A DNA stretch of 64,000 nucleotides from Thermoprotei archaeon (GTDB lineage: Archaea; Thermoproteota; Thermoprotei; Thermoproteales; B15-G16), in contig QMRC01000002.1 of NCBI GenBank assembly GCA_003649205.1, positions 146,770 to 210,769 on the forward strand, given 5' to 3'. The position numbers and the translations under genes were made by a program. Positions 14,591 to 27,673 of the stretch are shown here, one piece after another. The notes under the pieces were generated by a model. That model did no database searches. It saw nothing but the letters and a program-made list of their open reading frames with translations, and was not told the origin of the DNA. Each line of letters begins with the position of its first letter. Positions within the stretch are counted from its first letter, which is position 1.

Positions 14591-15565
14591 TTAAGCTTTC
14601 CTGCATTGTTTCATCGACTCTATGATCTTGACTACTTCTCTAGCGAGTTTGATCTTGGATTTTAGATCAGTCATTACTATGTTGCTTGTGATCACGTAGA
14701 TTTCGAGTTCCTTACTTATCCTCTCGCCTACTTCTCTATCTCTCACATCTACTACCATGGCGTCTACGTAGTCTCTAAGTATTTCAGCTACTGAGTAGCT
14801 CGATGGTTCGTAACCTATTGCTTTTAGGAATTTATGGAGTGGTCCTGAGAATGGTCTATTACCTACTATTGGTGATATCGCTACTACAGGTACTTCACCG
14901 CGTAGCTCCTTTATCTTCTCACCTAGTCCCTGTACCTTCAGTATAGGTAGTATGCTATTTACCGTGTTACTTGGTCCTATGATTATGGCGTCTGCTTGTT
15001 CTAGTGCTGTGATTACGTCTCTTGTTACCTTTGCTTTCTCTAGTCCTAGGAATGTTATTCCGTGTACTTCAGGTTCCATTCTGTACTTGACTAAGTACTC
15101 CTGTATGTGGAGGTTACCTATGTTCGTGAGTACGTAGGTTTCTACGTGGTTATCTGTTGCTGGTAGTACTGTGGCTCTGATACGTAGCTTACTTGCTAGG
15201 TACTTCGTTACCTGCGTTAGTGTGTACCCTCTCTTCATGAGTAGTGTCCTTGTAATGTGTGTTGCTAGGTCTCTATCACCGATGTTGAACCATGTCCAGT
15301 CTAGTCCGTACTGTTTTGCTTGTTGTAGGAAGTTGAAGGTGTCTTCTTTGATTCCCCAGTACTTACCTGTATCGAGGATGTTTGCGAAGAGGTATAGTAC
15401 TGTATCTACGTCAGGTGCTATGTAGAGGTCATTCCACCAGAAGTTATCTGCTACGTTGACTACGACAGTTATATCTTCTTCAGGGACGACATGTCTTAGA
15501 CCTTCGAGTAGTTTGGGCGTTCCTGTTCCACCGCTTAGAACTACGAGCTTCACCTTGATTCCCAC
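14591..15565 (-). CDS. cofD: 2-phospho-L-lactate transferase (F420 biosynthesis)
   Basis: LSGGTGTPKLLEGLRHV, NVADNFWWNDLYIAPDVDTVLYLFA, IIGPSNTVNSILPIL. Confidence 0.95.
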   Translation of the reverse strand: MGIKVKLVVLSGGTGTPKLLEGLRHVVPEEDITVVVNVADNFWWNDLYIAPDVDTVLYLFANILDTGKYWGIKEDTFNFLQQAKQYGLDWTWFNIGDRDLATHITRTLLMKRGYTLTQVTKYLASKLRIRATVLPATDNHVETYVLTNIGNLHIQEYLVKYRMEPEVHGITFLGLEKAKVTRDVITALEQADAIIIGPSNTVNSILPILKVQGLGEKIKELRGEVPVVAISPIVGNRPFSGPLHKFLKAIGYEPSSYSVAEILRDYVDAMVVDVRDREVGERISKELEIYVITSNIVMTDLKSKIKLAREVVKIIESMKQCRKA

Positions 15566-15661: not shown

Positions 15662-16639
15662 ATGTGTTCTCAAGTCTCTATCTCTATCCTGGTTGAGCGT
15701 GGTCTATGTTCTAGCTGTGGTGCTTGTGCTGCAGTGTGTCCCTTCTCAGCTATTGAGTTTCCAGAGCCTTTCTCATTACCTAGGGTAATTGGTGATAAGT
15801 GTAGGTTGTGTGGTCTCTGCTATAGGATCTGTCCTCAGGTAGGTATTGTTGATGAGGTTAGGGGGAGAGAGGTTAAGCCGTTGGCTACGTACATGGCTAG
15901 GTCTACTCTAGCTGAGGTTAGGGGGGTTGCTCAGTGTGGTGGTGTTGTCACTACATTAGCTATGTACTTACTGGATAGGAGGTTCGTTGATGCTGTTGTG
16001 TCTGTTGGTAGGGATGAGTACTGGCGTCCAGTACCTAAGCTCATTACTGATAAGTTGGGGGTTCTCGAGGTAGCAGGTTCGAAGTATACCTACGTATCGG
16101 TTCTTACATTGTTGAGAGATGTCGTTAGAAGTGATGCTATTAGGTCGGTAGCTGTTATTGGTCTTCCCTGTCATATGAGAGCTATTGAGAAAATGAGGAG
16201 ATTGAAGTTAGCTGCCTCTCAGAAAGTTAAGTACCTCATCAGCATCTTCTGCATGCACAACTTCGAATATGGTGTAGTGAAGTACATTGTTGAGAAGTTT
16301 GGTCTCGATATCAAGTCCATCTCTAAGATGGATATAAAGAGGAGGTTCATAGTTAAGTTAGTGGATGGTAGGGTTCTCGAGGTACCTCTCAAGGAGTTAG
16401 ATCAGTTCGTTAGAGCTTGCTGCCGTAGCTGTCCAGAGTTTGTCTCCACAATAGCAGATGTCTGTGTCGGTAGTGTAGGTGCTGAAGAAGGTTGGAGTAC
16501 CGTATTCGTGATGTCTGAGAGAGGTAGAGGAATTGTTGAAGATGCTGTGAGAGATCAATACCTTGAGGTTAAGGAGCTACCTGAAAAGGCCATGAAGATT
16601 GTGGCGAAGTTAATCAGTATGAAGGTTGGAAGTAGATAG
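15662..16639 (+). CDS. Coenzyme F420 hydrogenase/dehydrogenase beta-subunit-like (FrhB/FpoF) with two 4Fe-4S motifs
   Basis: CSSCGACAAVCP, CRLCGLCYRICP, CGGVVTTLAMYLL, GLPCHMRAIEKMRR. Confidence 0.88.
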   Translation: MCSQVSISILVERGLCSSCGACAAVCPFSAIEFPEPFSLPRVIGDKCRLCGLCYRICPQVGIVDEVRGREVKPLATYMARSTLAEVRGVAQCGGVVTTLAMYLLDRRFVDAVVSVGRDEYWRPVPKLITDKLGVLEVAGSKYTYVSVLTLLRDVVRSDAIRSVAVIGLPCHMRAIEKMRRLKLAASQKVKYLISIFCMHNFEYGVVKYIVEKFGLDIKSISKMDIKRRFIVKLVDGRVLEVPLKELDQFVRACCRSCPEFVSTIADVCVGSVGAEEGWSTVFVMSERGRGIVEDAVRDQYLEVKELPEKAMKIVAKLISMKVGSR

Positions 16640-16699: not shown

Positions 16700-18742
16700 T
16701 TGAGTAAGCCACTTCACGTCAAGATCGGTAAGCTCGAGTCCCCTCCCTTAGCTGCTGAGAACATTGATCTGGTCATCGGCTCTGTAGTTATTGAGGAGGA
16801 GTGGGAACCAACTGGTCCTGCTTCAAGACCTTCACTTCCAATGCTGAGGGCTTGGGATCTATTCCTCTTGAAGAGGTATGAACCTATGTACGTAGTTGAG
16901 AATAAGCTACAGCACGCAAAGACCTTACTCACACTCACGGTATCCGGTGCATTAGCCTACCTAGCACTAGCTAAGAGAAGGCTTAGAGCTGCGTACCGTA
17001 GGTTAGGTGAGGATGCCCCAATTGAGTTAGGTGTTGCTGTTGAGGCTCCACTCACTAGGTTACTGATAGGTATTAGGCCAAAGGTATTGACTGAGCTTGA
17101 GGAGCCCCTGAGGTATGCTGAGGAGCAGATAGTCGAGATCAGTGCAGCTATCCACAGTAATCAGGAAGCTAGTATCGAGGACTTGGAGTCAAAGATGTTT
17201 CACATAGGTACAGCTACGCTACTGCTAACTGAGGTAGCTGAGATAGCTAATTTAATGCTAGTTCCGAAGGGTATTAAGGTACCTGAAAAGCTTGAGTTTG
17301 GAAAGGCACTCATTGACTTCACGAAACCTGTAGTACTTATCCTCGGTGATGTTCCTGAGGTAGTAGATGTTGTTGAGTACTGTGAGAGAAGTGGGTATAT
17401 CGATAAGATCGAGATCGTGACTGGTGGATGCTATGCACTAGACACCGTTAGGGTTGGTAAGTACTTGGTTAAGGTCGTTGGTACGCTCGATGACGTTAGG
17501 GATGTTGTCGGTAGAGGACTTGTGGACGTACTCATCGTTGGTGAGCAAGGTGCTATACCAGACATAGTTGAGAAAGCCAAGGAGAAGGGTACTGTGGTGA
17601 TTACGACAACAGAGAGAGCTTACCTAGGTCTACCAGACCTTACAGGTGTGGATACTGAGAAGATAGTTGAAGCTGTTAAATCAGGTACAGTGAGGGGATT
17701 TGCTGTCTTGGATGCACAGAAGTTAGCTGAGGTAGTACCTAGAGTAGCACTGGTAGTTTATGAAGCTAGAAAGGAAGTGAAGCCTAAAGCTCTTGAGGAG
17801 GTAAAGGAGGTCTTTAGCAGGGAGAAGTACGTAATGAAGCCACCACTCGGACCTGTTCCTGAACCTGTTATCAGGGATCTAGGTGTTCCTGTCGTGATGG
17901 GTACTATACCTGGTATAATAGCTGTTGTTGGATGTAGTAACTATGGACCTAGCTCACTTGAGGAACTTGGTGAGATCCTTGAGGAGCTGTGTAAGAGGAA
18001 CTTCCTAATCCTCACGACAGGCTGTACAGCAATAGCACTGTCCAAGTACAGGACTAAGGAGGCAGGTCACGGGCTTTACGAGGACTTCCCAGATCAGACA
18101 TTGGTGATGGGATCTCCAACAGCTATAGCACACATAGCTGGACTCGCACTCAAGGTACCACAGATCTTCGCTAGAATGCCGCTTAGATCAAATGCACCTG
18201 CACTAGTCGACTACCTACTTAATAGAGTTGGTGCTGTTGGTCTAGCATGGTCAGCACCGCTCGAGAGGGATGCAGCAATTGCATGGGGCGTACTAAGGTG
18301 TGGTGTACCAGTTGTTGCTGGTCCAGCACTAGCACCTGTTGGTAGGTTATTCCTTGGTGATCCAACTAAGCCAGAGAAGTACGTGATATACGACAAGAGG
18401 ACGAAGAAGAAGGTATTCGTTGGACCAGTACCTGAGCACCTACTGTGTCTAGCTAAGAACAAGGACGAAGCACTGATACTGATAACTAAGCTAGTTATGA
18501 GGGCTAACGATGGTCACAGCGCTAGGGCTATCAAGGCATGTCACTACGTCGACATGTACAGGAAAGTACATGGAACACTACCACCAGACCTACCGAACTA
18601 CATCAGAGCTGAAGCAGACATAGCGATAACGGTCAAGGACGAGGTCATGAAGTTCCTACAGGAGAAGGGCTGGAAACCACTAGAGGAACCATTGGTAGAC
18701 CCAACGTGTCTACCGCTACTCCAAGAAATAACAAGTTTATAA
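16700..18742 (+). CDS. CdhA-like (CODH/ACS alpha) protein lacking Fe-S cluster motifs
   Basis: Colinear with CdhA from memory (LRAWDLFLLKRYEP; IPGIIAVVGCSNY; TTGCTAIALSKY; LNRVGAVGLAW) and upstream of cdhC; 9 Cys in total, no CxxC, TTG start. Confidence 0.8.
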   Translation: MSKPLHVKIGKLESPPLAAENIDLVIGSVVIEEEWEPTGPASRPSLPMLRAWDLFLLKRYEPMYVVENKLQHAKTLLTLTVSGALAYLALAKRRLRAAYRRLGEDAPIELGVAVEAPLTRLLIGIRPKVLTELEEPLRYAEEQIVEISAAIHSNQEASIEDLESKMFHIGTATLLLTEVAEIANLMLVPKGIKVPEKLEFGKALIDFTKPVVLILGDVPEVVDVVEYCERSGYIDKIEIVTGGCYALDTVRVGKYLVKVVGTLDDVRDVVGRGLVDVLIVGEQGAIPDIVEKAKEKGTVVITTTERAYLGLPDLTGVDTEKIVEAVKSGTVRGFAVLDAQKLAEVVPRVALVVYEARKEVKPKALEEVKEVFSREKYVMKPPLGPVPEPVIRDLGVPVVMGTIPGIIAVVGCSNYGPSSLEELGEILEELCKRNFLILTTGCTAIALSKYRTKEAGHGLYEDFPDQTLVMGSPTAIAHIAGLALKVPQIFARMPLRSNAPALVDYLLNRVGAVGLAWSAPLERDAAIAWGVLRCGVPVVAGPALAPVGRLFLGDPTKPEKYVIYDKRTKKKVFVGPVPEHLLCLAKNKDEALILITKLVMRANDGHSARAIKACHYVDMYRKVHGTLPPDLPNYIRAEADIAITVKDEVMKFLQEKGWKPLEEPLVDPTCLPLLQEITSL

Positions 18743-18819: not shown

Positions 18820-20241
18820 ATGTCCTCTAGCATAGTACCCGGATTTCCCGTCGACATTGGACCTGCGTACGAGGGTCAGAGAATTAGGAGACCAGACATG
18901 TACGTTGAGTTCGGTGGACCCAAGATAGCTCAGAAGTTCGAGCTACTAAGGGTTAAGAAGTTGGAAGAGGTTGAGGATGAGAAGGTTGAGGTTATTGGAC
19001 CTGACCTACCTGAGCTGAAAGAGGGTGAGAGCTATCCAATCGGTATAGTCATTGAGGTAGCTGGTGCAAAGCTCACACCTGAACTAGAGGGTGTTCTCGA
19101 GAGGAGAATTCACGACTTCCTAAACTACATCGACGGTGTCATGCACGTAGGTTCGAGAGCAGACATTTGGATTAGGATAAGTAAGAAGGCATACAGTAAA
19201 GGTCTCAATACACTGAAGCTAATTGGTCTAGCTCTGATCAAGCTATTCAAGAAGACCTTCCCAATGATTGAGAAAGCACAGGTAAAGTTCATAACAGATC
19301 TTGAGAAGGTTAAGGAGTACCTAAGTGAGGCAATGAAGGTTTACGAGGAGAGAGATAAGAGGGCACTAGCTCTAACAGATGAGGAGGTAGATACATTCTA
19401 CGGCTGTATCCTATGCCAGTCCTTCGCTCCTGGTCATGTCTGCATAATAACTCCTGAAAGACCATCAGCATGCGGTGCTGTGTCCTGGTTTGATGCTAGA
19501 GCAGCAGCCATGATCGATCCCAAGGGACCAATATTCCCAGTACCTAAAGGTAAGTGTCTGGATCCAGTTAAGGGAGAGTACGAAGGTGTTAACGAGAAGG
19601 TTAAGGAGAAGTCACTTGGGAATGTAGAGAAGGTGTACCTATACAGCATGTTCGACTATCCAATGACATCCTGTGGTTGCTTCGAAGCAGTAGCATTCTA
19701 CATACCTGAGGTCGATGGTATAGGTATAGTCCATAGAGGATTTAGAGGTAAGACACCTATTGGACTAACGTTTGGTCAGTTAGCAGAGCAGGTCGGTGGT
19801 GGTAGACAGGTAAGTGGCTTCCTAGGCATATCGATACTGTACATGAGGTCCAGGAAGTTCCTAATAGCTGATGGTGGATGGAAGAGAGTTGTGTGGCTAC
19901 CGAGCGAGCTTAAGGAGAAGCTAAAGGATGTGATACCACCAGATCTCTACGATAAGATAGCTACTGAGAAAGATGTATCAACTGTTGAGGAGCTAAAGAA
20001 GTGGTTGATCGAGAAAGGTCACCCAGTAGCAGAGAAGCTAAAGGCTGCTGAAGCAGCACCCCCAGCTGCACCACCTGCCGCACCTCCCGCACCTGCCGCT
20101 CCAGCTCCTGCACCAGCACCGCCAACAGCGGTTACGGTACCAGCAGCGGCACCAGCAGCACCACAGGTACCCATTAGGATAGTGCTGCACAATGCTAGGA
20201 TATACATCAAGAGAGTAGTTGTTGTGAAGAAGGGTACCTAG
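18820..20241 (+). CDS. cdhC: Acetyl-CoA decarbonylase/synthase beta subunit (ACS)
   Basis: FYGCILCQSFAPGHVCIITPERPSACGAVSWFDARAA and MTSCGCFEAVAFYIPEVDGIGIVHR: A-cluster region; Ala/Pro-rich linker near C-terminus. Confidence 0.95.
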   Translation: MSSSIVPGFPVDIGPAYEGQRIRRPDMYVEFGGPKIAQKFELLRVKKLEEVEDEKVEVIGPDLPELKEGESYPIGIVIEVAGAKLTPELEGVLERRIHDFLNYIDGVMHVGSRADIWIRISKKAYSKGLNTLKLIGLALIKLFKKTFPMIEKAQVKFITDLEKVKEYLSEAMKVYEERDKRALALTDEEVDTFYGCILCQSFAPGHVCIITPERPSACGAVSWFDARAAAMIDPKGPIFPVPKGKCLDPVKGEYEGVNEKVKEKSLGNVEKVYLYSMFDYPMTSCGCFEAVAFYIPEVDGIGIVHRGFRGKTPIGLTFGQLAEQVGGGRQVSGFLGISILYMRSRKFLIADGGWKRVVWLPSELKEKLKDVIPPDLYDKIATEKDVSTVEELKKWLIEKGHPVAEKLKAAEAAPPAAPPAAPPAPAAPAPAPAPPTAVTVPAAAPAAPQVPIRIVLHNARIYIKRVVVVKKGT

Positions 20242-20252
20242 GGTGTTCATTC

Positions 20253-20471
20253 ATGAGTACGAGACAGGAGGGGAAGAGGAGTACTGAGCAAGGTAGTGAA
20301 CTAGGTACTGATCTCCTCAACTTCCTCCTTTCTCTTGTTGGTTTAGGAGCTACTGTTGAACTTCACGGTGTGACGATAACAGCTGAGAAGGTTGTCATAA
20401 CGAGAATTGAGGGGAGTGGTAGTGAGTCAGGAGAGAAGGGTAAGGGAAGAGAGGAGAGAAGCAGAAGCTAG
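20253..20471 (+). CDS. 72-aa protein between cdhC and cdhD
   Basis: Contains GATVELHGVTITAEKVVITRIEG, resembling CdhC C-tail and CdhD N-terminus; overlaps the cdhD ORF. Confidence 0.65.
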   Translation: MSTRQEGKRSTEQGSELGTDLLNFLLSLVGLGATVELHGVTITAEKVVITRIEGSGSESGEKGKGREERSRS

Positions 20472-21792
20472 GAAGGTTGTTGCGGATTTACTCAAGCTAC
20501 TGAGTACAGCTGATAGACTAGAGTTCGAAGACGTTGTGATTGATGCTAGGGAGCTAACTATCGAGTTCATACCCCCATCAGCTCCAACAGGTCCAACGTA
20601 CCTGAAGCTAACCGTTGAGCCGGTTGGTGTACCACAGCCACCAGGTGGTAAGCTAGAGTTCATCCTTGAGGTAACTCCAACAGGCTTTAGATTACTCACA
20701 CCACCAGTACCTGGTGCTGTACCTATTACAGTACCGCCCATAGCTGCTGTCCCTAAGCTTGTTGAGTTTATTAAGGTGGAGTACAAGTACCCAAGTCTTG
20801 AGTTCAAGGGGTCAATTGCCGAGGTCAAGATAGGTGCTACGAAAGCTGAAGGTGGTACGAGATCTACAGTTATTAAGATTGGTGGTGACAATAAGCCCCC
20901 TATCTTCAGGTTCCTAGGTTACGTAGTTAATAGACCGAAGGTAGCACTAGACGTATTCGATACAACTATCCCACTACCTAGAGCTGTGAGAGATGCGTAC
21001 GGTGATGTTCTCTCAAATCCCTATGAGTGGGCAAAGAAGTGTATCAACGTGGTTAAGGCAGATCTAATATCGTTTCACCTAGTCAGTACTGACCCCGGTA
21101 TCAAAGATGTATCACCACAAGAAGCAGCTAAAGAGGTTGAGCAGATGCTCCAGACAATAGACATTCCATTCATTGTCGGTGGTTGTGGTAATCCAGTTAA
21201 GGACCTAGAGACCTTCGCGAAGGTAGCTGAGGTAGCTGCTAACGAGAGACTCGTACTGGCATCAGTTACCTTCGGTATGAATATACCTAAGTACGTTGAG
21301 GTTGTTAAGAAGTTCAATCACGTAGCACTAGCCCTCATATTCATGGATGTGACTCAGGCTAAAGCCATATGTCGTAGGTTGATGGATCTAGGTCTCAGCA
21401 AGGATAGGATAATTCTCGACCCGACAACGGCTGCATTAGGGTATGGTACAGAGTACTCCTTTAGTGCAGCTGAGAGAATTAGGTTAGCTGCTCTTAGAGG
21501 TGACGAGGATCTACAGGTACCAATGAGCTGTGCCGCGACAAATGCTTGGGCTGCTAGAGAGGCGTGGATGAAGCTAGATGCGTGGGGTCCAAGGGAGTGG
21601 AGAGGTCCTCTCTGGGAAGCTGTTACAGCTATGACGATGTTGCTTGCTGGTGCGGATCTCTTCATGATGATGCATCCACTAGCAGCGTCCATAGTTAAGT
21701 CTGTTACTGAGTTCATGGAGAAGCAGACGGTTAGGGATGTTATTGAGAAGGAGGTTTCTGAGTACTATAGCTGGGTGACTAAGAGGTATTGA
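20407..21792 (+). CDS. cdhD: CODH/ACS corrinoid protein small subunit (delta); start may be GTG 20422
   Basis: ALDVFDTTIPLPRAVRDAYGDVLSNPYEWAKKCI, FIVGGCGNPVKDLE, ILDPTTAALGYGTEYSF. Confidence 0.92.
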   Translation: MRGVVVSQERRVREERREAEARKVVADLLKLLSTADRLEFEDVVIDARELTIEFIPPSAPTGPTYLKLTVEPVGVPQPPGGKLEFILEVTPTGFRLLTPPVPGAVPITVPPIAAVPKLVEFIKVEYKYPSLEFKGSIAEVKIGATKAEGGTRSTVIKIGGDNKPPIFRFLGYVVNRPKVALDVFDTTIPLPRAVRDAYGDVLSNPYEWAKKCINVVKADLISFHLVSTDPGIKDVSPQEAAKEVEQMLQTIDIPFIVGGCGNPVKDLETFAKVAEVAANERLVLASVTFGMNIPKYVEVVKKFNHVALALIFMDVTQAKAICRRLMDLGLSKDRIILDPTTAALGYGTEYSFSAAERIRLAALRGDEDLQVPMSCAATNAWAAREAWMKLDAWGPREWRGPLWEAVTAMTMLLAGADLFMMMHPLAASIVKSVTEFMEKQTVRDVIEKEVSEYYSWVTKRY

Positions 21793-21808: not shown

Positions 21809-23239
21809 GTGCCTAGGAGGATTAAGCCTCTTGATGTCTATAGGTTACTTCCGAAGCTAAATTGCGGTAAGTGTGGTGAACCGACGTGCATGGTCTTTGC
21901 TACTAAGCTGATTGAGCGACAGACTACACTCGATAAGTGTAGGCCTCTCTTCGAGGATCCTAGATTTAGGGAGAACTTGAGGAAGTTAATGGAGTTGTTG
22001 AGGCCTCCTGTTAAGGAGGTTACCATAGGTGTTGAACCTAATGCTGTTAAGGTCGGTGGCAAGGACGTTGTGTATAGGCATGAATGGACTTGGAGGAATC
22101 CAACAGCTATAGCTCTCGATGTTCACGATGGGATGGGTGATGAAGAGGTTGAGAGGAGGATTAAGTTTGTTAATGAGTGGTTCTATGAGAGGATTGAGAA
22201 GAGACTCGGTATTGACTTACTTGCTGTTAGGTGTGTCTCTGGTAGTGCTGAGCGATTTGTGAAGTTTGTCGAGAAGGTATGTAAGTTAACTAGTAAACCG
22301 TTGATCGTGTGTACTCTTGATCCAGCTACTCTCGAGGAAGTATTGAAGAGGATTGGTTCTCGAAGACCTCTAATCTATGCTGCTACTGAGAGAAATTGGA
22401 GGGAGTTCGCTGATCTAGCTGTTAAGTGGTCTTGTCCTTTGGTTGTTTCAGCTCCTAACGACCTATCTAAGTTGAAGAGCTTAGTGGTCTCGATAGTGAA
22501 GAACTTTGGTTATGAGGAGCTGGTACTGGATCCAGGTACCTTGGTTAGTAATGGTGGTTTCCTAGATACGATATCGAACTTTACGGCTCTCAGGTACTCA
22601 GCTATTGAGTTTGGTGAGAGGGAAGTAGGTTTTCCACTCATGGCTATACCAGCTACTGTCTGGATCTTCGAGAGTGGTGGTACTGAGGAGCTGGAGTTTA
22701 GGGAAGCAATTATAGCGTGTTCGTTAGTAGCTAGGTACGCGGATATTCTAGTAATGCATAGCTTAAGCCCATGGGTCTACATGGCTGTTCTCTGTCTGAG
22801 GGACTGCCTGTACACTGATCCACGAGTTCCACCATCAGTTAAACCTGGACTGTACGAGGTGGGTAAACCAACACCTGAATCTCCTCTCGTAGTTACCTGT
22901 AACTATGCACTCACAGTATCCCTAGTGAGAGGAGATCTTGAGAAGAGTGGTATCGATGCTTGGCTACTGGTGATAGATACTGAGGGTACCTCTGTAGCAT
23001 CAGCTGTTGCTGGTAAGAGATTCACAGCGGATAAGATAGCTGAGGCGGTTAAGGAGCTTAAGTTAGAGGAGAAGGTCAAGCACAGGTCGCTGGTGATACC
23101 TGGCTACGCAGCTAAGATAGCTGGTGAACTAGAGGATCTACTACCAGGGTGGAGGGTCTTCGTAGGTCCTAGAGAGAGTAGTGATCTACCTAAGTTCATT
23201 AGGGAGATTTGGAGTAAGGAGGTCCTGGGTAAGGCGTAG
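21809..23239 (+). CDS. cdhE: CODH/ACS corrinoid iron-sulfur protein large subunit (gamma)
   Basis: LLPKLNCGKCGEPTCMVFATKLIERQTTLDKC 4Fe-4S motif; PTAIALDVHDGM; LPGYAAKIAGELEDLLPGW. Confidence 0.95.
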   Translation: MPRRIKPLDVYRLLPKLNCGKCGEPTCMVFATKLIERQTTLDKCRPLFEDPRFRENLRKLMELLRPPVKEVTIGVEPNAVKVGGKDVVYRHEWTWRNPTAIALDVHDGMGDEEVERRIKFVNEWFYERIEKRLGIDLLAVRCVSGSAERFVKFVEKVCKLTSKPLIVCTLDPATLEEVLKRIGSRRPLIYAATERNWREFADLAVKWSCPLVVSAPNDLSKLKSLVVSIVKNFGYEELVLDPGTLVSNGGFLDTISNFTALRYSAIEFGEREVGFPLMAIPATVWIFESGGTEELEFREAIIACSLVARYADILVMHSLSPWVYMAVLCLRDCLYTDPRVPPSVKPGLYEVGKPTPESPLVVTCNYALTVSLVRGDLEKSGIDAWLLVIDTEGTSVASAVAGKRFTADKIAEAVKELKLEEKVKHRSLVIPGYAAKIAGELEDLLPGWRVFVGPRESSDLPKFIREIWSKEVLGKA

Positions 23240-23241
23240 GC

Positions 23242-24018
23242 ATGAGTATACTGATTGCTGTAAGCGGTAAGGGTGGTGTAGGGAAGACCGTCATCACAGC
23301 ACTCATGCTAAAGGCAATTACTGAGGAAGGTATTGAGGATAGGGCTATCCTAGTGATTGATGCTGATCCGGATGCTAATCTAGCAGACGTACTTGGCATA
23401 CCACTTGATGTAAAGAAAACTCTTGGTTACGTAGCTACTGAGTTCAAGAAGGAGCTAGAGAAAGCCTCTATATCCGAGGTCGATAAAGCTACAGTACTTC
23501 AGACACGAGTACTTGAGGTAGTTCAGGAACTACCTAAATTCGACTTCCTCGTTATGTGGAGAACTGAAGGTGAGGGCTGTTATTGCTTTGTTAACGCAGT
23601 TCTCTCCAATGTTCTTGAGTGGTTAATGGATCAGTACGACATAATCCTAGCTGATTGTGAAGCAGGGTTAGAGCACTTCAATAGACGAGTTTTCAAAGCA
23701 ATAGACTACTTAGTACTGGTTACTGATCAGAGTAAAGCGAGCTTCGATACTGTTAAGAGAGTTCTAGATGTTGTTCATGAAGTGGGTATAAGGGTTAGGA
23801 ATGTGGGTATCGTAGTCAATAAGTTCAGAGAACACTATAGAGAACGAGTTACGAAACTTGCTAGTGAAATTGGAGTAGAGATTTGGGGATTCGTACCATA
23901 TAGTGAGGCCATTGAGGAATTTATGTCTGAAGCTAGATCACTGATGGAGTTACCGAGAGATGAAGCTGCTTATGTAGCTGTGAAGGAGGTACTCAAGAAA
24001 AAAATAGGTATTTTGTAG
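23242..24018 (+). CDS. CooC/AcsF-like maturation ATPase
   Basis: IAVSGKGGVGKTVITAL, IDADPDANLADVLG, CYCFVNAVL; 2-nt gap from cdhE. Confidence 0.88.
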   Translation: MSILIAVSGKGGVGKTVITALMLKAITEEGIEDRAILVIDADPDANLADVLGIPLDVKKTLGYVATEFKKELEKASISEVDKATVLQTRVLEVVQELPKFDFLVMWRTEGEGCYCFVNAVLSNVLEWLMDQYDIILADCEAGLEHFNRRVFKAIDYLVLVTDQSKASFDTVKRVLDVVHEVGIRVRNVGIVVNKFREHYRERVTKLASEIGVEIWGFVPYSEAIEEFMSEARSLMELPRDEAAYVAVKEVLKKKIGIL

Positions 24019-24027
24019 GTTCCCGTT

Positions 24028-25026
24028 CTAGCTCCTTAACTTCTTGACTATTTCACCGATTAGTGCAAGAGCTTCTTTCTTCTTCGGACCTAGTGGTGAT
24101 CCCATTACAATGTGAGTTATTCCAGCCTTGATTAACTCTCTAAGTTTCTCAATGCACTCATCTGGTGAGCCTGAAATTGAGAAGTAGTCTAGCATTAAGT
24201 CATCTACGTTCTCAGCAGCTTTCTTGAAGTCTCCCTTAGCTAGTGCTTCTCTGATAGTGCTTACCTTACCTAGATCTATTCCTCGTTCCTTCAGTAATGT
24301 ATCTGGTGCTCCTGCAACTATGAACGCTACTACTAGTCTAGCTGCATCCTTTGCCTTCTTTGAATCTGGTGCTACTGAGAAGCAGGTATACGCTACAATG
24401 TCTATCTTGCTGAAGTCCTTTCCAGCTGCTTCAGCACCCTTCTTAATTAGTGGTATTGCCTTCTCGAAGTCCTTGGGGTGTGATGCGTTTATCAGTACTC
24501 CATCACCTAGTTGACCAGCTAGCTGAAGCATCTTAGGTGCTTGGGCACCTATGTAAATTGGTATTGCTCTACTTGGCTTGAAGTTTAGTCTTGCTCCCTT
24601 AAGCTTGAAGAACTCACCTTCGAAGTTAACTACTTCACCAGCAAGTAATCTCCTAATGACTGTCACAGCTTCTCTAACAGCTGTTAGTGGTTTCTTCCTC
24701 TCAATACCAATAGCTTCGAGTGTTGCCTTATCACCTGAACCTATACCGAGAATAGCTCTTCCACCACTAACCTCATCTAGTGTAGCTACTGCAGCAGCTG
24801 TCCAAGCTGGGTGAATAACATATGGGTTTGTAACACCTACACCTAGAGTTATTTTACTTGTCTTGATAGCCATCATGGTTAATGCGATGTAGACAGTACG
24901 GTTGCAGTAGTGATCTGTTACCCATATACTATCTAGGCCATTCTGCTCGGCAATGATTGCATACTCGACTAATGTTGAAATAGCTCTATCAGGAACCAGC
25001 TCTATACCGAACTTCAAGTTAACCAC
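24028..25026 (-). CDS. mer: F420-dependent 5,10-methylenetetrahydromethanopterin reductase-like
   Basis: FGIELVPDRAI, WVTDHYCNRTVY, GVGVTNPYVIHPAWTAAAVATLDEVSGGRAILGIGSGDKATL, IPIYIGAQAPKML, GDGVLINASHPKDF. Confidence 0.85.
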   Translation of the reverse strand: MVNLKFGIELVPDRAISTLVEYAIIAEQNGLDSIWVTDHYCNRTVYIALTMMAIKTSKITLGVGVTNPYVIHPAWTAAAVATLDEVSGGRAILGIGSGDKATLEAIGIERKKPLTAVREAVTVIRRLLAGEVVNFEGEFFKLKGARLNFKPSRAIPIYIGAQAPKMLQLAGQLGDGVLINASHPKDFEKAIPLIKKGAEAAGKDFSKIDIVAYTCFSVAPDSKKAKDAARLVVAFIVAGAPDTLLKERGIDLGKVSTIREALAKGDFKKAAENVDDLMLDYFSISGSPDECIEKLRELIKAGITHIVMGSPLGPKKKEALALIGEIVKKLRS

Positions 25027-25318: not shown

Positions 25319-26101
25319 TTGGTGATCTCCATGGGTGAAGTACCTAAGGTAGAGATAATTGGGTTACTCGACTTTCCCGATGTTAAGCCAGGTGATGACC
25401 TTGGAAAGCTAATTGTCGAGGTTGCTAGGAGAAACGGTATTGAGTTCATGGATGGTGATGTAATTGTTATCGCTCAGAAGATTGTCTCTAAGTCCGAGGG
25501 TAGAATAGTTGATCTGCAGACCGTTAAACCGTCTGAGTATGCAGTGAAGTTGGGTGAGGAACTAGGTAAGGACCCTAGATTAGTTGAGGTGGTGCTTAGG
25601 GAATCTCATGAGGTTTTGAAGGCTGAGGCAGGGCACTTGATCTCGCTGACAAGACATGGATTCGTATGTGCTAATGCTGGTGTTGATCTATCTAATGTAG
25701 ATGGTAGTGGGTTAAGAGTAACGTTACTACCTGTAAATCCGGATGAGTCAGCTAGGAGAATTAGGGAGAGAATTAAGGAGTTGACTGGTAGGGATGTTGC
25801 TGTTGTCATAACAGATACCTTCGGTAGACCATTTCGTGAAGGTGTTGTGAATTTTGCAATAGGTATATCCGGTATCCATCCATTTCGTGACTACATAGGT
25901 AAGGTAGATAGGTACGGATACGTAATGAGAGTGACTAAGGTCTGCATCGTTGATGAGGTAGCTGCAGCGGCGGAGCTAGTTATGGGACAAGGTGCTGAGG
26001 GTATTCCAGTTGTAGTAATTAGAGGGCTCAGGTACGAGAGAAGGGATGACGCAAGTATTCAGGAAGTTGTTATGCGTAAGGAGAAGTGGTTATTCAGGTA
26101 A
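25319..26101 (+). CDS. cofE: Coenzyme F420-0:L-glutamate ligase
   Basis: VIAQKIVSKSEGRIVDL, HGFVCANAGVDLSN, VVITDTFGRPFREGVVNFAIG. Confidence 0.93.
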   Translation: MVISMGEVPKVEIIGLLDFPDVKPGDDLGKLIVEVARRNGIEFMDGDVIVIAQKIVSKSEGRIVDLQTVKPSEYAVKLGEELGKDPRLVEVVLRESHEVLKAEAGHLISLTRHGFVCANAGVDLSNVDGSGLRVTLLPVNPDESARRIRERIKELTGRDVAVVITDTFGRPFREGVVNFAIGISGIHPFRDYIGKVDRYGYVMRVTKVCIVDEVAAAAELVMGQGAEGIPVVVIRGLRYERRDDASIQEVVMRKEKWLFR

Positions 26102-26263: not shown

Positions 26264-27673
26264 GTGATGTTAATGAGTAGCAAATCCGCAGAGAAGAGTC
26301 CTATCTACTACCTCTTCAACCCTCGTAGCATTGCCGTGATAGGTGCTTCTCGTGATCCCAAGAAGATAGGTTATCAGATTCTCAAGAACATCATTGAGTA
26401 TGGATTTAAGGGAAAGGTCTATCCAGTCAACCCGAAAGCTGATGAGATTCTCGGACTAAAGTGCTACAAATCCATTCTCGATATACCTGATGAAGTTGAT
26501 GTCGCTGTCATATCGATACCTGCTCAGTACGTATTACCTGTTGTTGAGGAATGTGGTAAGAAAGGTGTTAAGGCTCTAATAGTGATATCCTCTGGCTTTG
26601 GTGAGGTAGGTAATGTCGAGCTTGAGAGAAAGCTAGTTGAGACAGCTAGGAAGTACGGAATGAGGATACTTGGACCCAATATCTTCGGTCTCTACTACGG
26701 ACCTGCTAGGTTGAACGCAACCTTTGGTCCTAAGGAGGTTATTCCAGGTAACATAGCATTTGTCTCACAGAGTGGTGCTCTAGGTATAGCACTCATGGGG
26801 TGGACCATTGCAAAGGGCGTAGCTCTCTCAGCTGTTGTCAGCATGGGTAACAAGGCAGATATAGATGATGCAGATGTCCTTGAGTACTTCGAAACTGATC
26901 CTAACACCAAGGTCATACTCATATACATGGAGGGTATTAGACCAGGTCTCGGTAGGAGGTTTGTTGAAGTGGCTAGGAGAGTATCTAAGAAGAAGCCAAT
27001 CATAGTTATCAAGGCTGGTAGAACAGAGAGAGGTGCTGCTGCAGCAGCGTCGCACACTGGTGCGCTTGCAGGAGCAGATGCAATATACAATGCGGCATTT
27101 AAGCAAGCAGGTGTGCTCAGAGCGATAGGTTTTGAAGAAGCATTTGATTGGGCTAAAGCACTGAGCATGCTACCACCACCTAAGGGTGAGAACGCAGTAA
27201 TCATAACGAATGGTGGTGGTGCTGGGGTAATGGCTACTGATGCAGCTGTTGAGTGCGGTATTCGATTAATGGAGATGCCACCAGATCTACAGGAGAGGTT
27301 CAGGAAGTACATGCCACCATTCGGGAGCCCGAAGAACCCAATAGACTTGACAGGTCAAGCAAGTGAAGAGGCGTACAAAGGTGCTCTCCTAGAAGCATTC
27401 AATGAACCTAGAATTCACTCCATAATACTACTGTACTGTCAGACAGCAATTACAGATCCAGAGGTGCTTGCTGATAAGATAATTGAGGCTTGGAATGAAG
27501 CTAAGGAGAGAAAGCCTATGGTAGTCTCATTCATTGGTGGAATTGAGTGTGATAGAGCTATGGCGAAACTAGATAAGGCTGGTATCCCAGCATACCCATC
27601 TCCAGAGAGAGCTGTTAGTGCTCTCAGTGCTGTCTATAAGTGGGCTAGATGGGCAGGTTACGTGAAGGAGTAA
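26264..27673 (+). CDS. acdA: ADP-forming acetyl-CoA synthetase, alpha subunit
   Basis: LFNPRSIAVIGASRDPKKIGYQIL, FVSQSGALGIALM, VIKAGRTERGAAAAASHTGALAG; TATA CTTATAAAGG upstream. Confidence 0.92.
   Translation: MMLMSSKSAEKSPIYYLFNPRSIAVIGASRDPKKIGYQILKNIIEYGFKGKVYPVNPKADEILGLKCYKSILDIPDEVDVAVISIPAQYVLPVVEECGKKGVKALIVISSGFGEVGNVELERKLVETARKYGMRILGPNIFGLYYGPARLNATFGPKEVIPGNIAFVSQSGALGIALMGWTIAKGVALSAVVSMGNKADIDDADVLEYFETDPNTKVILIYMEGIRPGLGRRFVEVARRVSKKKPIIVIKAGRTERGAAAAASHTGALAGADAIYNAAFKQAGVLRAIGFEEAFDWAKALSMLPPPKGENAVIITNGGGAGVMATDAAVECGIRLMEMPPDLQERFRKYMPPFGSPKNPIDLTGQASEEAYKGALLEAFNEPRIHSIILLYCQTAITDPEVLADKIIEAWNEAKERKPMVVSFIGGIECDRAMAKLDKAGIPAYPSPERAVSALSAVYKWARWAGYVKE

Follow-up and report, generated by a model that had tools for sequence, protein, structure and literature searches.

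A putative catalytically inactive CODH alpha subunit retained in the acetyl-CoA synthase operon of a Thermoprotei archaeon

The window, the whole 64,000-nucleotide stretch of DNA analysed here, contains an acetyl-CoA synthase (ACS) operon on the plus strand with the gene order FrhB-like oxidoreductase, CdhA1, CdhC, CdhD, CdhE and CooC/AcsF-like ATPase (Table 1); the name of the last gene is based on gene order and its CxC motif. The CdhA1 reading frame starts with TTG and has no internal stops. The host assembly comprises 2.07 Mb and is 94% complete with a contamination estimate of 4%. An assembly error in CdhA1 is unlikely, since its deletions and substitutions are in frame and scattered along the gene, and the surrounding operon is uninterrupted on a contig of 323 kb. 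All six A-cluster cysteines of CdhC (196, 199, 208, 218, 285 and 287) are present together with the alcove residue Phe202, in agreement with the original prediction of a competent ACS subunit.

The FrhB-like protein is comparable to the zeta subunit described for the F420-reducing CODH (PMC11493965). This zeta-type gene precedes a CdhA that has no clusters for electron exchange. By eye, the operon is flanked by CofD-like (14591-15565) and Mer/LLM-like (24028-25026) genes on the minus strand and by CofE-like (25319-26101) and ADP-forming acyl-CoA synthetase-like (26264-27673) genes on the plus strand, which is consistent with F420 and C1 metabolism. A short open frame between cdhC and cdhD (20253-20406) resembles, also by eye, the N-terminal segment of CdhD.

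Table 1. Genes of the ACS operon, sites in CdhA1 and related loci elsewhere in the genome. Positions refer to the window unless a locus or contig is named; Met, M. thermophila CdhA numbering.
Feature	Position	Strand	Remarks
FrhB-like F420 oxidoreductase, two Fer4 motifs	15662..16639	+	Pfam FrhB_FdhB N and C, Fer4
CdhA1	16700..18742	+	CODH alpha homologue, predicted catalytically dead and cluster-less, 680 aa
Deleted B/D-cluster loop, between residues 65 and 66	16892..16897	+	alignment
Tyr87 at the catalytic His site (His93, CODH-II numbering)	16958..16960	+	alignment
G-D replacing GHN, C-cluster His (His261) lost	17345..17350	+	alignment
Cys244, C-cluster ligand retained (Cys295 equivalent)	17429..17431	+	alignment
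Gly284 at the Cys333 position, ligand lost (EQC to EQG)	17549..17551	+	alignment
Deleted E/F two-[4Fe-4S] ferredoxin insert, between residues 364 and 372	17789..17815	+	alignment
Arg392 (Met Arg500), A-cluster glycine contact	17873..17875	+	alignment; PMC11474084
Val399 (Met Val507), CO alcove	17894..17896	+	alignment; PMC11474084
Cys412, C-cluster ligand retained (Cys446 equivalent)	17933..17935	+	alignment
Cys442, C-cluster ligand retained (Cys476 equivalent)	18023..18025	+	alignment
Pro473 at the Cys526 position, ligand lost (GSC to GSP)	18116..18118	+	alignment
Phe490 (Met Phe601), CO alcove and gate	18167..18169	+	alignment; PMC11474084
Arg523 at the catalytic Lys site (Lys563, CODH-II numbering)	18266..18268	+	alignment
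CdhC (ACS beta)	18820..20241	+	A-cluster ligands complete
CdhD (delta, corrinoid protein small subunit)	20407..21792	+	TIGR00381 above cutoff
CdhE (gamma, corrinoid Fe-S protein), four-Cys Fe-S motif	21809..23239	+	NF003195 above cutoff; Pfam FeS
CooC/AcsF-like P-loop ATPase, CxC motif (residues 113, 115)	23242..24018	+	
CdhA2	L004:7470-9545		691-707 aa
hypD and CdhA2, hypD 3' end overlapping CdhA2 5' end	L004:6386-9545 (G000:C2)		
Duplicated hydrogenase locus L249	G000:C3:25299-25502	-	
Duplicated hydrogenase locus L250	G000:C3:265927-266130	+	

CdhA1 is a CdhA (TIGR00314, ACDS alpha) by descent, as originally proposed, and not a member of another family. It scores 531.7 bits against TIGR00314, under the equivalog cutoff of 781.3, and the structures 8riu_A, 9c0q_A and 3cf4_A align to nearly its entire length; identity to other CdhA proteins is 33-41%. 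We modelled CdhA1 with AlphaFold2, using sequences from the window and related loci as input (pLDDT 86.1, pTM 0.86). Among the PDB matches listed, the model comes closest to the alpha chains of M. thermophila CODH and CODH/ACS and of the Ca. Ethanoperedens F420-reducing CODH. The TM-score to the archaeal alpha chains is 0.87-0.88 by query length (0.87 to 9c0r_A), and among the matches listed the CooS-type CODHs reach 0.44-0.56. Given the high score to CODH alpha chains, CdhA1 is predicted to adopt the CODH fold still, despite the lost metal sites.

For a census of metal ligands, CdhA1 was aligned in turn with two sets of CdhA proteins, 49 from the phylum and 142 canonical ones from archaea and bacteria. 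The CODH-II residue numbers attached to the ligands are those we take to apply; the alignment columns themselves were computed. The ligand and acid/base positions missing from CdhA1 are near-invariant in the 142 canonical proteins, and mapping the ligands onto known CdhA in this way confirmed that the losses are real. The nine cysteines of CdhA1 are residues 228, 244, 412, 431, 442, 534, 583, 614 and 670, hence none occurs in residues 1-227, as a count from the sequence had indicated. All B/D-cluster cysteines are absent, and the E/F insert is deleted. Only three of the six C-cluster ligands (one His and five Cys) are left, which is less than the set of a catalytic Ni-CODH, and both the B/D relay cysteines and the acid/base His and Lys of such an enzyme are missing. 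The motif replacements listed in the original prediction proved correct item by item. Its description of a subunit stripped of clusters holds for the B/D and E/F clusters and for three C-cluster ligands, but not for Cys244, Cys412 and Cys442. The epsilon subunit (cdhB), the partner of alpha in the archaeal ACDS alpha2epsilon2 complex, had been noted as absent from the window; a PF02552 search found none in the window or in the whole assembly (94% complete).

The surface by which CdhA contacts ACS has fared differently from the invariant B/D loop. In the M. thermophila complex, CdhA binds ACS and shapes the CO alcove with its Rossmann fold 2, which stands in for the A1 domain of bacterial ACS; the contact residues named are Arg500, Leu504, Val507 and Phe601, and the C-terminal extension contacts ACS as well (PMC11474084). 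The N-terminal extension of CdhA probably assists in keeping the ACS subunit in place (PMC11493965). CdhA1 has the equivalents of Arg500, Val507 and Phe601 (Arg392, Val399 and Phe490), and CdhC has its own alcove residue Phe202. The Leu504 position, variable even among canonical CdhA, is occupied by Val396. Among canonical CdhA, Arg500 and Phe601 show no variation apart from one unreadable residue. CdhA1 keeps 12 of 13 invariant positions in the N-terminal tail, 50 of 81 in Rossmann fold 2 and 22 of 28 in the C-terminal extension, versus 0 of 13 in the B/D loop.

Proteins that have lost CODH ligands recur in ACS operons of other lineages. A contig scan with CdhA1 alone as query returned no relatives; the scan with an alignment as query did. 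A second cluster-less CdhA of exactly the same type as CdhA1 was not found in 44 other genomes of the order or in a sample of 400 genomes of the phylum. G025, from a sister genus in the same order, encodes a 454-aa mini CdhA immediately after cdhE; it lacks the B/D loop, Rossmann fold 1 and the E/F insert, and genes for CooS and a CooC-like ATPase adjoin it. A similar 373-aa piece lies at a contig edge in G033, another sister-genus genome, which also has a canonical cdhA-cdhB pair. Eight dead CdhA proteins were found in Dehalococcoidia. Four of them (G404, G405, G660, G679; 698-705 aa) have lost the six C-cluster ligands and the E/F insert and kept the B-cluster cysteines, with the gene order cdhD-cdhA-cdhC where flanks were fully read. 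Three (G416, G549, G471; 768 aa) have lost the C-cluster ligands and retain most E/F cysteines, and the last is a 445-aa mini CdhA between cdhD and cdhC in G527. Wherever flanks were read, the dead CdhA genes adjoin cdhC, cdhD or cdhE. In the genomes of the order and phylum sample, several short open frames of 571-643 aa (G332, G110, G309) stop at contig edges and were excluded from the count.

The Dehalococcoidia proteins can be arranged as a series of CODH decay (L202, L203, L204, L199-L201, L228), from loss of the C-cluster ligands to additional loss of the ferredoxin insert; the G527 protein, also devoid of Rossmann fold 1 and the B loop, is the furthest along. One MAG record, L157, titled Dehalococcoides mccartyi, has a canonical CdhA, which is at odds with published descriptions of Dehalococcoides as devoid of CODH; the label may be loose.

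Arg500, Val507 and Phe601 are retained in all ten dead CdhA proteins aligned. CdhA1 keeps 58 of 84 near-invariant C-terminal positions, and 21 of the 84, including Arg500 and Phe601, are kept by all dead CdhA. The chance of both these residues being retained is about 0.06 if positions are drawn at random, which is only modestly unlikely. A full-length tree including CdhA2 (see below) was uninformative due to extreme branches, and a tree of the C-terminal domain without CdhA2 was used instead. On this tree, with five reduced proteins included, the reduced CdhA require at least three changes. The contact residues and these convergent cases strengthen the original proposal that ACS was kept, CODH chemistry was lost from CdhA1 and the subunit was retained structurally. 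The 'scaffold' role suggested for it can be made specific: what CdhA1 has kept corresponds to the parts which, in archaea, stand in for the A1 domain of bacterial ACS (PMC11474084).

All 18 genomes that have canonical CdhA encode the epsilon subunit, versus 0 of 10 genomes with only a dead CdhA in the operon (Fisher P = 8e-8, only a guide because the genomes are related). Epsilon was likewise not found in G021 and G042, which have only a divergent FrhB-linked CdhA. CooS is present in six of the ten other genomes with a dead CdhA (G025, G033, G404, G405, G660, G679) and was not found in G416, G549, G471, G527 or the host genome. Most of these genomes are draft assemblies, therefore gene absences may reflect incompleteness.

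The host assembly encodes one other protein of the Prismane/CODH family, CdhA2, whose gene lies about 19 kb beyond the end of the window on the 323-kb contig that carries the operon. A search for a second cdhA, for cdhB and for cooS returned this gene; neither canonical CdhA nor cdhB nor CooS was found. CdhA2 has the C-cluster His and five Cys, both acid/base residues and both ferredoxin motifs. Its B-cluster-like loop contains four cysteines with altered spacing, and clear D-cluster cysteines are absent. At the positions of M. thermophila residues 500, 504, 507 and 601 it has His, Pro, Val and Trp. In the 400-genome sample of the phylum, CdhA2 best matches canonical CdhA proteins, at about 30% identity. 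The candidate upstream start codons of CdhA2 fall within hypD (TIGR00075, 437 bits); no second case of a CdhA2 overlapping hypD was found in the phylum sample of 400 genomes. The predicted loss of CO dehydrogenase activity applies to CdhA1 and need not extend to the cell, as CdhA2 carries the full C-cluster and ferredoxin-insert ligands. The host genome also encodes [NiFe] hydrogenases with both CxxC motifs present. One [NiFe] hydrogenase gene cluster, which looks like group 4, is present in two oppositely oriented copies on a single contig, with identical protein sequences, and is either an inverted repeat or an assembly artefact.

We consider it probable, at about 70%, that CdhA1 is a catalytically dead CODH subunit (pseudo-CODH) kept as a partner of ACS, with CO handled by another enzyme or by none. 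CdhA1 would dock on CdhC through Rossmann fold 2, the C-terminal extension and the N-terminal tail, sealing the CO alcove above the A-cluster and gating the passage of CO. Its job would be that of the alpha subunit in archaeal CODH/ACS and of the A1 domain that bacterial ACS carries within its own chain. It would be unable to make or oxidise CO or to carry electrons; CO could be supplied or removed by a separate enzyme, for which CdhA2 is the only candidate in the host genome, or the ACS could operate without a CODH. Several observations speak against this reading: chance retention of both Arg500 and Phe601 is only modestly unlikely, position 504 varies even in canonical CdhA, three C-cluster cysteines persist, and the upstream FrhB-like gene is suggestive of electron transfer that CdhA1 cannot serve.

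The possibility that the ACS runs without any CODH, splitting acetyl-CoA for methyl groups while CO leaves, or using outside CO, with CdhA1 docking and gating only, is compatible with the pseudo-CODH reading and differs in the CO partner. We regard it as conceivable, with the odds somewhat against it. The failure to find CooS or canonical CdhA in the host assembly and the four genomes with a likewise dead CdhA and no CooS found (G416, G549, G471, G527) point this way, and there is a precedent in D. mccartyi, whose incomplete Wood-Ljungdahl pathway has ACS without CODH (PMC7005905). Against it are the full C-cluster ligand set of CdhA2, the CooS kept in the six other dead-CdhA genomes and the incompleteness of the assemblies.

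A tentative extension of the pseudo-CODH reading, rather doubtful at present, is that CODH has been split in two, CdhA1 serving ACS docking and CO gating only and CdhA2 making the CO that becomes a ligand in the [NiFe]-hydrogenase cofactor, and perhaps the CO used by ACS as well. The source of CO for [NiFe]-cofactor assembly in anaerobes is unresolved (PMC12134894). The overlap of its gene with hypD makes CdhA2 a concrete candidate for this source.

It is unlikely that CdhA1 and CdhA2 form a heterodimer working as one CODH/ACS, with CdhA2 contributing the C-cluster and CdhA1 the docking site for ACS. Their residues are complementary, ACS-contact in one and catalytic in the other, and the genes share a contig; but they lie tens of kb apart, the D-cluster loop that sits at the dimer interface is missing from CdhA1, and CdhA2 is at best about 30% identical to canonical CdhA. 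Still less probable is a new activity in which Cys244, Cys412 and Cys442, three retained C-cluster positions, hold a different metal site or cluster: the other three ligands, the acid/base residues and the electron relay are all gone, and the Dehalococcoidia and mini proteins have lost the same cysteines save for single remnants. Decay of a functionless gene, to which the very long branch of CdhA1 and the lack of a close relative for a selection test would fit, is the least probable of all, as the 680-aa frame and the operon are intact, the near-invariant C-terminal positions are largely kept (58/84) and several lineages maintain proteins of this kind.

Compared with known systems, the metal-less subunit CdhA1 is a variant within the known CODH/ACS alpha kind, with a presumably altered function. 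It shares with CdhA of archaeal ACDS (M. barkeri 3cf4, M. thermophila 9c0q-9c0t) near-full-length homology, the predicted fold (TM 0.87), the operon with cdhC, cdhD and cdhE and the ACS-contact residues; unlike these proteins it has no B, D, E or F ligands, no acid/base residues, half of the C-cluster ligands and no epsilon subunit found in the genome. It is also related in sequence to the A1 domain of bacterial AcsB (NF040764, E = 7e-16; 6yua_A, E = 2.8e-6) and keeps residues analogous to the A1 contacts; like A1, it may serve the A2/A3 domains, here supplied by CdhC, as a partner that has the CODH fold but no metal. However, CdhA1 is a separate gene upstream of cdhC, not fused to A2/A3, and it is larger than A1, belongs to the CdhA lineage and still has Rossmann fold 1, which both A1 and the mini CdhA lack. 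The FrhB-like, two-Fer4 gene directly upstream of CdhA1, and upstream of a divergent CdhA in sister-genus genomes, recalls the zeta-type CODH of Ca. Ethanoperedens thermophilum (8riu, PMC11493965), whereas CdhA1 lacks both epsilon and the E/F clusters expected to pass electrons to a zeta-like subunit. As in D. mccartyi, compared here by its description, the ACS appears to have no active CODH in its operon; unlike in D. mccartyi, a dead CdhA is kept. Our literature search returned no papers on cluster-less CdhA or hypD-tied CODH, which does not prove their absence, and no experiments on CdhA1, CdhA2 or the related dead proteins.

The A1 domain has been proposed to arise by duplication of CODH Rossmann fold 2, with no intermediate offered (PMC11474084), and its origin is an open question. 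The dead CdhA proteins form size grades, from 768 aa (full length, Dehalococcoidia) through 698-705 aa and the 680 aa of CdhA1 (ferredoxin insert lost) to minis of 445-454 aa with an A1-like layout. The minis match the AcsB A1 profile NF040764 at positions 5-271 (G025), 3-255 (G527) and, for the partial G033 protein, 30-255. Such graded proteins in ACS operons may be living analogues of the intermediates and a model of how a docking domain could have arisen. They also warn that inferring CO2 fixation or CODH activity from the presence of cdhA can mislead. In at least one recent survey, ligand-less sequences are removed prior to analysis (PMC13240472), so that such proteins would be missed.

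In three sister-genus loci (L090:6663-10088, L094:232-3658 and L095:233-3659) an FrhB-like gene is followed by a divergent 764-aa CdhA. Read residue by residue, the divergent CdhA of L011 (G019) has Glu at the C-cluster His, Ala at Cys295 and Leu at the catalytic His, with the B and E/F cysteines kept. The divergent FrhB-linked CdhA of the sister genus may be either an altered CODH or another pseudo-CODH.
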